Source of the DNA: Sphingosinicella sp. YJ22
GTDB lineage: Bacteria > Pseudomonadota > Alphaproteobacteria > Sphingomonadales > Sphingomonadaceae
Direction of reading: 5' to 3'
Assembly: GCF_011320075.1 (NCBI RefSeq)
Contig: NZ_JAANPA010000004.1
Span: 1 to 64,000, forward strand
DNA length: 64,000 nucleotides
Shown here piece after piece: positions 45,065-50,774 of the stretch; positions within the stretch are counted from its first letter, which is position 1; every line of letters starts with the position of its first letter. The notes beneath the pieces were generated by a model, which was not told the DNA's origin, searched no databases, and saw nothing but the letters and a program-made list of their open reading frames with translations. The position numbers and the translations under genes are program-made.

Positions 45065-47371
45065 GTGGACGTAGCGCAGGGCATGATCGAGCATGAGCGG
45101 GAAGGTGCTCCCAGGCAGGAAAGCGGCCGGCTAGCCGGCCCTCGTCCGGCGTGGCTAATGCCCGCGCTCGAGATCGGCGGGCTGATCGTCCTGATCGCCA
45201 CGGCCACGATCAGCTACCTCGTGATCTCGGGACGGGCCTCGCCCGACAAGTGGCTAGACCCGCCCATCGTTGCTGCCCTGCTGGTGGCCAATCTCGTCCC
45301 TGCGATGGCGATCATGGTGCTGTTCGCCCGCCGGATCGCCAAGCGCCGCGCCGCAAGGCTGGGCCTGGGCGAGGGGCGGCTGCACGTCCGCCTCGTCGTA
45401 TTGTTCTCCATCATCGCCGCCATCCCGACGCTGCTTGTCGTCGTGTTCGCATCGGTCCTGTTCCAAAGCAGCCAGGAATTCTGGTTCTCCGATCGTTGGC
45501 GCGGCAGCGTCGAGAGCGCGGTCGAACTCACTCAACAGGCATATCGCGGGGAGGTCACTCGGGTCGAAAGCGAAGCGGTGACGATGGCGACCGATCTCGT
45601 CGGGGCGCTACAGATCGTCGAATATGACGATCCCCAGTTCGTCACCTTCTTCAGCACCCAGCTCCTCGACCGGAACCTGTCGGAAGGCATTTTGCTGAGG
45701 TACACGCCGGACACCGGCATCCAGACATTCGTGATCATCAACCCCTATCAACGCGACCTCGAGAGGACGCTTGATCAGGCGGTGATCTCCCAGCTCCGCG
45801 AGCCGCTTCAGGCCACGACGATACAAGAGCAGAATAGAATCGGGGTTCTGGTTCGCTTCCCCGGCAACCAGAATTTCTATCTCTACGCGGCGCGCGTCTA
45901 TGGCGAGAATGCCGGTCTCGTTCCACAGAACGCTCAGGACGAGGCCAGCATCCGCTTCGAGTCGATCATGCTGGATCAGCTCCGCCGCGGCGACACCCTG
46001 CGCCGCGATTTCGAAGCGCTGACCAACGAGGCGAGAGCACTGCAATTCCGGTTCAACGCGGCAATCCTCGCGGTCTCGATCCTGATCGTGGCAATCGCCA
46101 TCTGGGTTGCGCTCAAGCTGGCGGACCGCCTGGTCCGACCGGTCGGGGCGCTGGTCGGCGCCGCCCGGCGCATCAGCGCTGGAGACCTCGCCGCGCGGGT
46201 CCCGCAGACCGGAGCCGACGACGAGCTGAGGACGCTGGGCGAGGCGTTCAACACCATGACCGAGCAGCTCGAGGAGCAGACCGGGGCGCTGGTGACCGCC
46301 AACCAGCAGTTGGACAGCCGCCGCGCATTCATGGAAGCGGTGCTTGCCGGAGTCACCGCCGGCGTCGTATCGATTGATCAGGAACGCATCATTCGCCTGG
46401 CCAATCCCACCGCCGAGGCGTTGCTTCGCACCAGCGGTCTAAGCCCAGTCGGTCAGAAACTCGTCGAAGTGGCGCCCGAGCTCGACCAACTCCTCTCCGA
46501 CACTGAGGCCGAGAATATCGTGCAGTTCGCCAGCCGCGGCGAGCCGCGGACGCTCGCCGTGAAGACCGTCGCGGTGGAGGGCGGCCATGTGCTCACCTTC
46601 GACGACATCACCGAGCAGCTGATCGACCAGCGCCGCGCCGCCTGGTCGGACGTCGCCCGGCGCATCGCGCACGAGATCAAGAATCCGCTGACCCCGATCC
46701 AGCTCGCCGCCGAGCGGCTTCAGCGGCGCTACGGCGCGGAAGTGACGTCTGACGCCGCGACCTTCGAGCGGCTGACCGGGACCATCGTCCGCCAGGTCGG
46801 CGACCTCCGCCGCATGGTCGACGAATTCTCGTCCTTCGCGCGGATGCCCAAGCCGGTGTTCAAGGCCGAGGCGGTGACCGACATCGCGCGCCAGGCCCTG
46901 TTCCTTCACGAGGTCGCCCATCCCGGCATTGCATTCAGCCTCGACGCTCCGGAGCCGTCGCCGATGCTCGTCTGCGACCGCCGTCATCTCGGGCAGGCAC
47001 TGACCAATATCGTCAAGAACGGCGTCGAGGCGATCGAGCAGAAGAATGAGGAGGACTCGGCAGGCGGCGGCGATCGAGTCGCGATGCGCGTCAGCCAGGA
47101 CGGCCCCCGGCTTGTTATCGAGGTCGAGGATAGTGGCGTCGGCCTCCCAGCCGACCGCGGCCGAATCACCGAGCCCTACATGACGACTCGGGCCAAGGGC
47201 ACCGGCCTCGGCCTCGCCATCGTCAACAAGATCGTCGAAGAGCATTTCGGGCAGATCGAGTTCGCCGATGCGCCCGGTGGCGGCACGTTGGTCCGCCTCA
47301 TCTTCGATGTCGAGACGCTCGCCCGCGTCGGCGGCGCCCGCAACATGGAAGAACATTCAGTCAATGGTTGA
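45065..47371 (+). CDS. ntrY: NtrY-type sensor histidine kinase
   Basis: A 768-residue membrane sensor. Three N-terminal helices (about 30-150), a periplasmic or extracytoplasmic sensing domain of about 180 residues, a further helix near 340, HAMP (about 360-415) and a PAS domain (about 420-510) come first. A HisKA domain has H536 in ARRIAHEIKNPLTP, and an HATPase has N and G boxes (VKNGVEAIEQ, DSGVGLP, TRAKGTGLGLAIV). Partner NtrX follows with overlap. GTG 45065 is the called start; ATG 45083 is an alternative. NtrYX has been linked to nitrogen metabolism, redox and envelope control. Confidence 0.9.
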   Translation: MDVAQGMIEHEREGAPRQESGRLAGPRPAWLMPALEIGGLIVLIATATISYLVISGRASPDKWLDPPIVAALLVANLVPAMAIMVLFARRIAKRRAARLGLGEGRLHVRLVVLFSIIAAIPTLLVVVFASVLFQSSQEFWFSDRWRGSVESAVELTQQAYRGEVTRVESEAVTMATDLVGALQIVEYDDPQFVTFFSTQLLDRNLSEGILLRYTPDTGIQTFVIINPYQRDLERTLDQAVISQLREPLQATTIQEQNRIGVLVRFPGNQNFYLYAARVYGENAGLVPQNAQDEASIRFESIMLDQLRRGDTLRRDFEALTNEARALQFRFNAAILAVSILIVAIAIWVALKLADRLVRPVGALVGAARRISAGDLAARVPQTGADDELRTLGEAFNTMTEQLEEQTGALVTANQQLDSRRAFMEAVLAGVTAGVVSIDQERIIRLANPTAEALLRTSGLSPVGQKLVEVAPELDQLLSDTEAENIVQFASRGEPRTLAVKTVAVEGGHVLTFDDITEQLIDQRRAAWSDVARRIAHEIKNPLTPIQLAAERLQRRYGAEVTSDAATFERLTGTIVRQVGDLRRMVDEFSSFARMPKPVFKAEAVTDIARQALFLHEVAHPGIAFSLDAPEPSPMLVCDRRHLGQALTNIVKNGVEAIEQKNEEDSAGGGDRVAMRVSQDGPRLVIEVEDSGVGLPADRGRITEPYMTTRAKGTGLGLAIVNKIVEEHFGQIEFADAPGGGTLVRLIFDVETLARVGGARNMEEHSVNG

Positions 47372-47376
47372 ACCCA

Positions 47377-48765
47377 ATGTCGCTTGATATTCTCATCGTC
47401 GACGACGAGCAGGACATTCGCGAGCTCGTCTCGGGCGTGCTGGAGGACGAGGGTTATACGACCCGAACGGCCGCCAACAGCCAGAGCGCTCTTCAGGCGC
47501 TCGCCGAGCGGCGGCCGTCGCTGGCGCTGCTCGACGTGTGGCTTCAGGGCTCCAAGCTCGACGGCCTTCAGCTCCTCCAGGAGATCAAACGGCGCGATCC
47601 GACCCTGCCGGTGCTGATGATCTCCGGCCACGGCAATCTCGACACCGCGGTCGCGGCGATCCGCCAAGGCGCGGTCGACTTCATCGAGAAGCCGTTCGAG
47701 GCCGGGCATCTCGTCCACCTCGTCCACCGCGCCACCGAGACCGAGCGGCTTCGGCGCGAGAATGAGAGCCTGAGGCAGCAGGTCGGCCAGGAGATGGAGC
47801 TGACCGGCTCGTCGACCGCGCTCAACCAGGTTCGAGCAACGCTGAAGCGGGTCGCCGCGACCGGAAGCCGGGTGTTGATCACCGGCCCCGCCGGAGTCGG
47901 CAAGGAAGTGGCGGCGCGGCTTCTGCACAATTGGAGCCCGCGCACCCGCGGCCCGTTCGTCGTCGTCGGCGCCGCCCAGATGACCCCGGAGCGAGTCGAG
48001 GAGGAGCTGTTCGGAGTGGAGGAGGGCGGCGAGCTCGTCCGCCCCGGCCTGCTCGAGCAGGCGCATGGCGGCACCCTCTACGTCGACGAGGTCGCCGACA
48101 TGCCGGCCTCGACCCAGGGCAAGATCCTGCGCGTGCTGACCGACCAGAGCTTCTCGCGGGTCGGCGGCCAGCGCATCGTCAAGGTCGACATGCGGGTCGT
48201 CTCGTCGACCGCGCGCAACCTCCAGGACGAGATCGCCGCCGGGCGCTTCCGCGAGGACCTCTATTACCGCCTCAACGTGGTTCCGGTGCACGTGCCGGCG
48301 CTGGCCGAGCGGCGCGAGGACATCCCCGAGCTGGTCACCCGCTTTGCCGCGCGGTTCGCGGCCGAGCGACGGGTGGGGACGCCCAACATCTCGGCCGACG
48401 CGCTCGCGGCGCTCCAGGCCTTTGACTGGCCGGGCAACGTCCGCCAGCTCAGGAACGTGATCGAGCGGACGGTGATCCTCGCGCCGGGCGAGCGCATCGG
48501 CTGCATCGAGATCGACATGCTGCCGCCCGAGATCCTCAGCGACCAGGCGCAGCTGACCCCGAGCGAGGCGGTCAAGGCGATCATGGGCACGCCGCTGCGC
48601 GAGGCGCGCGAGACGTTCGAGCGCGAATATCTTCGCGTCCAGATCCGACGCTTCTCCGGCAACATCTCGCGCACCGCGACCTTCATCGGCATGGAGCGCT
48701 CGGCATTGCACCGGAAATTGAAGGCCTTGGGCCTCGGGGAGACGCGCGGCGAGAGCGACGAGTAG
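47377..48765 (+). CDS. ntrX: NtrX-type response regulator with AAA+ domain, lacking GAFTGA
   Basis: A 462-residue regulator. The receiver has D9, D10 and phosphoacceptor D53 (LLDVWLQG). The AAA+ domain has Walker A GPAGVGKE and Walker B GGTLYVDEVADM, and a Fis-type helix-turn-helix lies at the C-terminus (NISRTATFIGMERSALHRKL). The loop that carries GAFTGA in sigma54 activators is replaced by a short FGVEEGGELVRPG, so sigma54 contact is not expected; this loss is known in some alphaproteobacterial NtrX. ATG 47377 is chosen; TTG 47368 would give an overlap with the ntrY stop. Confidence 0.9.
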   Translation: MSLDILIVDDEQDIRELVSGVLEDEGYTTRTAANSQSALQALAERRPSLALLDVWLQGSKLDGLQLLQEIKRRDPTLPVLMISGHGNLDTAVAAIRQGAVDFIEKPFEAGHLVHLVHRATETERLRRENESLRQQVGQEMELTGSSTALNQVRATLKRVAATGSRVLITGPAGVGKEVAARLLHNWSPRTRGPFVVVGAAQMTPERVEEELFGVEEGGELVRPGLLEQAHGGTLYVDEVADMPASTQGKILRVLTDQSFSRVGGQRIVKVDMRVVSSTARNLQDEIAAGRFREDLYYRLNVVPVHVPALAERREDIPELVTRFAARFAAERRVGTPNISADALAALQAFDWPGNVRQLRNVIERTVILAPGERIGCIEIDMLPPEILSDQAQLTPSEAVKAIMGTPLREARETFEREYLRVQIRRFSGNISRTATFIGMERSALHRKLKALGLGETRGESDE

Positions 48766-48854: not shown

Positions 48855-48957
48855 GCGCCGGGCTGCAATTTGCCGCGGGATCGCCTATAGCGGGCGCAAA
48901 TTCGCCACTCGGGTGAACAACAGAAGCTCATAAGAAGCCGATCGGGGAGTGCGGGAC

Positions 48958-49452
48958 ATGGCCGACAAGGTCAACAATCTGCAGGACATGTTCCTGAACA
49001 CGCTGCGGCGGTCGAAAACGCCGGTGACGATGTTCCTGGTCAAGGGCGTCAAGCTTCAGGGGATCATCACCTGGTTCGACAATTTCTCGGTGCTCCTGCG
49101 CCGCGACGGCCAGGCCCAGCTCATCTACAAGCATGCCATCTCGACGGTGATGCCGGCCCAGCCGATCGACCTCTCCGACATCCAGAAGGCGTTCGACGAG
49201 CAGGTCGAGAAGAAGAAGCCGACCCTGCTCCAGGAGGTGTTCCTCGCCGCGGTGCGCCGCTCGGGGGAGCCGGTGACGATGTTCCTCGTTAATGGCGTCA
49301 TGCTGCAAGGCGAGATCGCGGCCTTCGACCTGTTCTGCATGCTGCTCCAGCGCGACGGCATGTCCCAGCTGGTCTACAAGCACGCCATCTCGACGGTGCA
49401 GCCGGAACATCCGGTGAGCCTGATCGAGCAGGCCGAGGAGCCTGACGCCTGA
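48958..49452 (+). CDS. hfq: tandem-domain RNA chaperone Hfq (two Sm domains in one chain)
   Basis: A 164-residue protein, about twice a normal Hfq core. Sm domain 1 spans about 6-72: [12 protein letters not shown] (Q9, D10; rim R17, R18), VKLQG, F43, YKHAISTV at 57-64. A 15-residue acidic/Lys linker ([15 protein letters not shown]) leads to Sm domain 2 at about 89-155: [12 protein letters not shown] (Q92, E93; R100, R101), VMLQG, F126, YKHAISTV at 140-147. Three chains could build a six-domain ring with alternating faces. D9 of the proximal site becomes Glu and the distal-side Lys becomes Met in domain 2. GGGGAG precedes ATG 48958. Confidence 0.95.
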
Positions 49453-50774
49453 GCGTTTTCAACCGCGACGAAGCGGACGTCGCCCGCGGAGCACCAGCAC
49501 TGATCGCCTTGCCCGAGCTCGGCGCCGGCAAGAGCCGCGACACCGACGCGCGGCTGGAGGAGGCGGCGGGCCTCGCCGAGGCGATCGGGATCGACGTGCG
49601 CGAGAAGCGCGCGTTCAAGATCCGAAGCCCCCGGCCCAAGACGCTGTTCGGCCAGGGCCAGGTCGACGCGATCGCCGAGGCGATGCGCCAGTCCGAAGCC
49701 GAGCTGCTGATCGTCGACGGCACGGTGACCCCGATCCAGCAGAAGAACCTGGAGGACGCCACCAAGGCCAAGGTCATCGACCGAACCGGCCTCATCCTCG
49801 AGATCTTCGGCGAGCGCGCGGCAACCGCGGAAGGGCGGCTCCAGGTCGAGCTCGCCCATCTCGACTATCAGCAGGGCCGGCTGGTGCGGTCATGGACCCA
49901 CCTCGAGCGGCAGAGGGGCGGCTTCGGCTTTCTCGGCGGCCCGGGCGAAACCCAGATCGAGGCCGACCGTCGGCTGATCCGCGACCGCATGGCGAAGCTT
50001 CGCCGCGAGCTGGAGGCGGTGACCCGTACCCGTTCGCTTCACCGGTCGCGCCGGCAGAAGGCGCCGTGGCCGGTGATCGCCCTGGTCGGCTACACCAATG
50101 CCGGCAAGTCGACCCTGTTCAACCGGCTGACCCGGTCCGAGGTGTTCGCCGAGAATCTGCTGTTCGCGACTCTCGACCCGACCATGCGCGAGATCGCGCT
50201 GCCCGGCCTCCCCAAGGCGATCCTGTCCGACACGGTCGGCTTCATCTCCGATCTTCCGACCCAGCTCGTCGCGGCGTTCCGGGCCACGCTCGAGGAAGTG
50301 CTCGCGGCCGACATCATCGTCCATGTCCGCGACATCTCCCACCCCGACAGCGACGCCCAGCGCGAGGATGTCGAGCGGGTGCTCAAGGAGCTCGGACTGC
50401 TCGGCGGCCTAGACAGCGACGACGCCGATGAAGGCGAGGGCCGCACGGGGATGATCGAGGCGTGGAACAAGATCGACCTGCTCGGCTCCGAGGAAGCCGC
50501 CAGCATCCGCGCCGAAGCGGAGCGCCGCGAGAACGTCGTGGTGCTGTCGGCGCTGAGCGGGGAAGGGGTGGACGACCTCCTCGCCTGCGCCGCCGCGCAT
50601 CTGCGCAAGGACGCCCGCCTCCAGGAAGTGACGCTCGGCGCCGGCGACGGCGAGGCGATCGCCTGGCTCCACCAGCATGGCGAGGTCCTCCACCAGGAAA
50701 GCGAAGGCCTCGAGACCCGCCTGCTTGTCAGGATCGCCCCGGCGGAATGGGAGCGTTTCCAGTCGCGACGGTGA
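49449..50774 (+). CDS. hflX: GTPase HflX, probable CTG start overlapping the hfq stop
   Basis: A ribosome-splitting GTPase, 441 residues from CTG 49449. G1 is [10 protein letters not shown]3 DTVGF, G4 NKID. The N-terminal HflX domain and the [15 protein letters not shown] linker are intact. The first standard start, TTG 49509, would remove [20 protein letters not shown], which aligns with the conserved HflX opening (F-D/N-R ... ALL). The frame is open from CTG 49449, which forms CTGA with the hfq stop and has GAGGAG about seven bases upstream. A non-ATG start here is inferred; the downstream TTG remains possible. Confidence 0.85.

Follow-up and report, generated by a model that had tools for sequence, protein, structure and literature searches.

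Fixed residue differences between the two Sm domains of a sphingomonad double Hfq suggest an asymmetric ring

The window analyzed here, a stretch of 64,000 nucleotides from Sphingosinicella sp. YJ22, codes at positions 48958–49452 for a protein with two Hfq/Sm domains, and no other Hfq was found in the genome. Hfq assists bacterial small RNAs in reaching their targets. Its double form is already known, though little studied. Two Hfq domains per chain were reported in 2010 for Zymomonas mobilis and six other Sphingomonadales species (PMC2877685), in keeping with the original prediction, which mentions double Hfq in some sphingomonads, and such proteins have their own NCBIfam model, NF010691. 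The comparison with relatives reveals that the first domain (D1) and the second (D2) differ in a constant way, all the basic residues of two distal positions being on D1. On these sequences it is rather probable that the protein is a tandem Hfq fusion, probably of one origin, whose Sm domains have unequal roles, and that three chains would form a ring in which D1 and D2 alternate.

The gene and its two domains

The features considered are the following, with their positions in the window.

48958..49452, + strand: double Hfq gene, 164 aa (frame translation, PF17209 and NF010691 profile matches)
48979..49167, + strand: Hfq/Sm domain 1 (D1), residues 8–70; PF17209 107.7 bits; ancestral-like; core net charge +5
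49228..49416, + strand: Hfq/Sm domain 2 (D2), residues 91–153; PF17209 86.5 bits; derived; core net charge −1
49174..49218, + strand: linker, residues 73–87, with a helix predicted by AlphaFold2 at 73–85
49042..49044, + strand: codon of K29 (position 28 in E. coli numbering), the D1 signature N28K; codon checked
49264..49266, + strand: codon of G103 (R19 of the rim in E. coli numbering), where D2 has lost a rim basic residue
49300..49302, + strand: codon of M115 (position 31 in E. coli numbering), the D2 signature K31M; codon checked
47368..48765, + strand: ntrX, upstream neighbor, used for the species tree; NF051870 756 bits (cut-off 600)
49509..50774, + strand: hflX, downstream neighbor, used for the species tree; TIGR03156 438.5 bits (cut-off 216.75)

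The gene consists of 164 codons and a stop in one open frame, preceded by a sequence resembling a ribosome-binding site (GGGGAG, 48944–48949) 8 nt 5′ of the ATG; when the surrounding sequence was scanned for promoters, no sigma-70-like site was detected. It is flanked by ntrX and hflX, both named from NCBIfam models. Upstream there is also a sensor kinase frame that would be ntrY by position only, as the best 25 of its 42 NCBIfam matches are all below cut-off. Antisense to the Hfq gene lies a 160-codon open frame (window 48928–49410, − strand); long antisense open frames are common in GC-rich DNA. The two PF17209 matches share the one Hfq frame and are the only ones in the 2.97 Mb genome. A search of this genome for ProQ/FinO (PF04352) gave no match at E 0.001, the E. 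coli control being detected.

The original prediction had placed two full Hfq cores on one chain, joined by a 15-residue acidic/Lys linker, and had proposed that the halves be searched separately. The translation and the profiles agree with it. Each half passes the cut-offs of PF17209 (27 bits) and of TIGR02383 (105.3 bits for D1 and 79 bits for D2; cut-off 61.7), and the whole chain passes that of NF010691 (299.9 bits; cut-off 270), residues 1–162 matching positions 16–174 of the 176 in the profile. With the double Hfq represented by NF010691/PRK14091.1 (Z. mobilis ZMO0347) it thus shares two Sm domains in the same order. The linker, S73–K87, contains four acidic residues and four Lys, and the PF17209 matches are separated by 20 residues. 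The motif YKHAISTV is present in both halves, as had been noted, and the D1 and D2 cores are 66% identical. Compared with the single Hfq of Caulobacter (6gwk), the D1 core is 76% and the D2 core 66% identical, with the same fold and with the proximal residues conserved; this and other alphaproteobacterial single Hfqs have one domain per chain, in which N28 and K31 are both present. Either core is 59% identical to E. coli Hfq (1hk9), and Q8, G29, L32, Q33, Q52, K56, and H57 are found in both. At full length, E. coli Hfq has 102 aa in the PDB (3qhs), whereas the window protein extends for a tail of 15 residues past P149.

An Sm fold, on which the original prediction depended for both halves, is predicted for each by AlphaFold2. 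The model of a single whole chain, built with an alignment of 51 double Hfqs, has a mean pLDDT of 90.3 and contains an N-terminal helix followed by five strands, twice, with the linker helix in between. In the structural comparison of this model, which covered D1 only, the best solved match is Hfq 6gwk (Z 9.8, rmsd 1.1 over 71 aligned residues). D2 was therefore modeled alone (pLDDT 90.4), and its best matches are 5sze and 6gwk (best Z 13.5; rmsd 1.6 over 69 residues for 6gwk). The closest solved structures of both predicted domains are hence Hfq chains.

Distribution and origin of the fusion

A Novosphingobium case of double Hfq is said to have been noted early, by Sun et al. in 2002. N. aromaticivorans also appears in a list of species with two hfq-like copies (PMC3474761). 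In our surveys, double Hfqs are the rule in the family of the window, which the nearest named loci indicate to be Sphingomonadaceae, and were detected in no other family. In a survey of 147 genomes of the order, two Hfq matches were found in 81 of the 86 genomes of this family and one match in the remaining 5; outside it, 59 of the 61 genomes have one match, 1 has none, and 1 (G001, family f2) has two. The latter is not a double Hfq, as only a fragment of 38 positions, located on a different contig, accounts for the second match. A larger survey of the family (397 genomes) gave two matches in 351, one in 44, and none in 2; no genome in it has more than two, as a three-domain Hfq would give. 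The one- and two-match counts of both surveys were tallied by hand from tables, and that the two matches lie in one reading frame is established only for those loci whose sequences were fetched and translated. Among 289 genomes of the class, 5 are above the NF010691 cut-off, all in the window's family, and the other 284 are below it, with 44 of the 289 giving no NF010691 match at all; strongly diverged doubles could be missed at 270 bits.

One apparent return to a single domain, in G688 (genus g301, one of the 44), looks like the effect of a contig end: its match is of the K28 type (bases 71–259 of the contig, − strand), and the contig ends before a second domain would begin. A single-domain Hfq in another genome (L176, G473) has a TAA at the codon of Y55, where its congener (L174, G525) is intact; this may be a sequencing error or a pseudogene.

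The original prediction had suggested a tree of the two domains as a means to tell whether the duplication is ancestral. In a tree containing 30 D1, 30 D2, and 28 single Hfqs (90 rows, 68 columns), one branch sets all D1 apart (support 97/90) and a second one all D2 (98/87), the single Hfqs lying between the two groups; 41 of the 87 inner branches of this tree are unresolved, and the rows of genus g13 gave long-branch warnings. Each domain thus forms one clade, and the duplication is older than the sampled genera with double Hfq.

The neighboring genes provide a second line of evidence. In a tree of NtrX and HflX from 36 genomes with double and 26 with single Hfq (62 rows), the doubles are separated from the rest by a branch with support 100, and they stay together with the same support when singles of ten further genera are included (28 doubles, 33 singles; 61 rows). 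In this second tree the nearest sister of the doubles is a genome with a single Hfq (G443, support 98). Both trees were obtained by fast searching with no bootstrap, neither of them sets the chosen outgroup apart by a branch, and rows with one gene are under half filled. Because each domain is one clade and the neighbor-gene trees group all the sampled doubles, the fusion probably arose once. One fusion, with no reversal, explains the sample; multiple origins or a reversion to single Hfq are not supported, as both NtrX/HflX trees keep the doubles together behind a single branch and place the single Hfqs of the family outside it. The single Hfq of the sister genome has N28 and K31, so N28K and K31M probably arose with the fusion or after it.

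Partition of residues between D1 and D2

The residue counts are based on 96 two-domain and 73 one-domain frames, which correspond to 83 and 63 distinct proteins, the latter including one fragment. The 83 double Hfqs are not independent, and 28 representatives are left at less than 85% identity. The loci named in this work come from one scan, the best 80 of at least 588 confirmed stretches, and lean toward close relatives.

The distal residues of the ARN path, N28 and K31 included, count among the defining features of Hfq. In the window protein, G29, L32, Q33, Q52, and T61 are present in both domains, N28 is changed in D1, and K31 is changed in D2. The second of these changes had been described in the original prediction as a K to M divergence on the distal side and corresponds to M115; the first (K29 of the protein) is new with respect to it. 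Position 28 is N in all 63 single Hfqs and in all 83 D2, and K in all 83 D1. At position 31 the 63 singles all have K, D1 has K in 78 cases and R in 5, and D2 has M in 80 of 83, with A (2) or L (1) in the others. Counting positions 28 and 31 together, there is one basic residue in each single Hfq, two in each D1, and none in any D2. The total per chain is two, as in two single Hfqs, but both are on D1. The same pattern (K and K in D1, N and M in D2) is found in 23 of the 28 representatives; the remaining five have R at position 31 of D1, and three of these lack M at position 31 of D2. Among the 68 columns, position 28 is the only one conserved at 95% or more in both domains on different residues, and columns 31, 37, 38, 41, 43, and 63 show such a conservation at 80% or more.

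Searches of the main text of openly licensed papers gave no mention of the N28K/K31M partition or of the charge asymmetry, which is a weak indication that none exists. The parts of the main text of PMC2877685 that bear on double Hfq contain no residue-by-residue comparison of D1 and D2, no N28K/K31M, and no charge asymmetry.

The rim differs in a looser manner. The mean number of basic residues at positions 16, 17, and 19 is 2.95 in single Hfqs (three in 62 of 63, the exception being a gapped row), 2.98 in D1, and 1.29 in D2. In the window protein the D1 patch is full, and D2 keeps two of the three basic residues, position 19 being G103. The rim arginines that the original prediction saw in both halves are indeed there at 16 and 17, although this does not extend to D2 in general, as R16 is present in 59 of 83 and K or R at 17 in 38 of 83. 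The mean net charge of the core is +3.9 in single Hfqs, +4.8 in D1, and −1.0 in D2, the two domains of the window protein being close to the latter values.

The proximal U-pocket, formed by residues such as Q8, K56, and H57, is conserved in both domains. Both domains of the window protein have all three residues, which are nearly invariant in the family: Q8 is kept in all 83 D1 and all 83 D2, K56 in 83 of 83 D1 and in the 82 D2 where the column is filled, and H57 is replaced, by Q, in two D1 of genus g13. A proximal D to E change had also been proposed, and E93 is found in D2 of the window protein. As a family trait it does not stand: D2 has D in 48 cases, E in 34, and A in 1, so that D9E was discarded as a fixed functional divergence of the proximal face.

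D2 is about twice as variable as D1. The mean p-distance is 0.286 for D2 and 0.147 for D1, with D2 the larger in 96% of 3403 pairs, and without genus g13 and its kin it is 0.230 and 0.098 (2556 pairs); for single Hfqs, taken from a different set of species, it is 0.112. Genus g13 (L119/G085, L149/G132, L150/G143, L151/G129, L152/G131; genomes of 2.1–2.3 Mb) has strongly diverged in both Sm domains. All five have K31R in D1, L150 and L151 are the two with H57Q, three have A or L at position 31 of D2, and two are changed at position 9 of D1. From these sequences, the Hfq of this genus may be losing the usual RNA contacts.

The higher variation of D2 also fits relaxed constraint and counts against unequal roles of the domains, as does the breaking of parts of the residue pattern in genus g13. 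This leads to an explanation by constructive neutral drift, which we consider rather unlikely. Once the three-chain ring had formed, three good D1 subunits would suffice, D2 would decay, and the asymmetry would be tolerated with no new function. Besides the twofold difference in variation, the closeness of D1 to single Hfq agrees with this, and so does the rim of D2, whose residues have been lost in many ways and not by one replacement (position 17: K 21, D 19, R 17, E 13, N 6). Drift does not predict the fixed residues. Met has one codon, so that every change is nonsynonymous, yet M31 is kept in 80 of 83 D2; D1 has gained a Lys by N28K and has it without exception; and D2 keeps N28 in 83 of 83 and Q63 in 80 of the 82 with this column filled. 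Hence, the losses at the rim of D2 look like drift and the fixation of K28 and M31 does not, and on balance the sequences favor a functional asymmetry of D1 and D2.

A ring of unequal subunits

E. coli Hfq is a homohexamer. Whether three double chains make up a ring was a question raised already in PMC2877685. We infer such a ring, the alternation of D1 and D2 in it, and an effect on the choice of RNA. The six domains of three chains would close into one ring. The proximal pocket (Q8, F/Y39, K56, H57) is kept in both domains, so the ring could still hold the 3′ U-tail of an sRNA with six-fold contacts. D1 would do nearly all of the electrostatic work, with a full rim patch (R16, K/R17, K19) for annealing RNA and basic residues at 28 and 31, and D2 would be a neutral-to-acidic spacer, with neither distal basic residue and with a weakened rim. 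Strong and weak sites would therefore alternate: three of the six rim patches would be strong and three weak, and the ARN-binding repeats would alternate around the distal face. The same split of the lysines across the relatives examined suggests a ring that is asymmetric by design.

The linkers bear on how the domains would be arranged. In 75 of the 79 double Hfqs that could be parsed (of the 83 distinct), the spacing from P64 of D1 to Q8 of D2 is 21–25 residues, the window protein being at the long end with 25, and this spacing seems right for joining neighbors in a ring. One could also think of D1 and D2 in separate rings, as hexamers stacked or side by side and made of six or more chains, or of one domain remaining outside the ring. 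The charges of the domains are far apart (about +5 and −1), so a packing of like with like is conceivable, and the AlphaFold2 model is of one chain only; on the other side, so constant a spacing might be expected of neighbors in one ring. Such arrangements appear improbable to us. Still less probable is that processing or translation yields two separate monomers of the usual Hfq size from this gene. In-frame ATG, GTG, or TTG codons occur in 60 of the 79 parsed linkers (ATG in 28), but 19 have none, there is none among the codons of the window protein from P66 to Q92, and the fixed complementary divergence of D1 and D2 would be needless for separate, interchangeable monomers.

For the alternating three-chain ring, data from other systems indicate which contacts could be affected. 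In E. coli, the K31A mutation lowers the fraction of Hfq that is mRNA-associated to 26%, from about 57% in the wild type (PMC7987339), and RIL-seq chimeras to 28% of the wild type, although by reporter assays its effect is mild, and R16A at the rim nearly abolishes chimeras (PMC12262471). Structures and simulations place residues 28–31 in contact with bound ARN repeats, the contacts of 28 and 31 being largely with the backbone, so that changes of side chain need not alter them (PMC8121710). Taken with the positions of the residues, these data would put the changed residues at the contacts with mRNA and for annealing, and leave the U-tail pocket untouched.

A stronger version of the same reading can be put forward only tentatively. 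One distal lysine would have moved from D2 to D1 and the rim of D2 would have been stripped, so that six equal ARN and rim units became three strong and three weak ones. The ring would then be obligately asymmetric and three-fold, with a distal period of two repeats (six nucleotides) and three annealing sites. Rings of nonidentical Sm subunits with divided roles exist in the eukaryotic Sm/Lsm heteroheptamers, where seven subunits are coded by separate genes; in contrast, double Hfq has two types of subunit fixed in one chain.

For sphingomonads, there is already an indication of Hfq function. Repression of thnR by the sRNA SuhB depends on Hfq in Sphingopyxis granuli TFA (PMC6563040). Four Sphingopyxis loci that were fetched (L055, L056, L057, L060) are double, TFA not being among them. 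In the window's genome, a suhB match (L177, contig C52, 7666–7742) scores 45 bits, with a Rfam gathering score of 41, and ends with a GC-rich inverted repeat, hairpin-like, and a run of seven T; a second match, on contig C14, is below the cut-off (32.6 bits). The first of these is a ready test substrate for the double Hfq. What speaks against a general role as chaperone is that, for Z. mobilis Hfq, the text of PMC7064620 reports no in vitro binding of the sRNAs Zms4 and Zms6 and describes a role as sRNA chaperone as not yet demonstrated. As a speculation, the asymmetry of D1 and D2 might bear on this hard-to-show activity.

Hfq has been studied as a symmetric homohexamer, in which mutating every other subunit requires engineering. 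The fixed differences between D1 and D2 are at or beside residues probed in E. coli (K31, R16–R19), and a family with two Hfq domains in 351 of 397 genomes offers a natural setting in which to ask how many sites an Hfq ring requires on its rim and its distal face. If the ring is indeed obligately asymmetric, it would be a natural experiment on the need of Hfq for six equal subunits.
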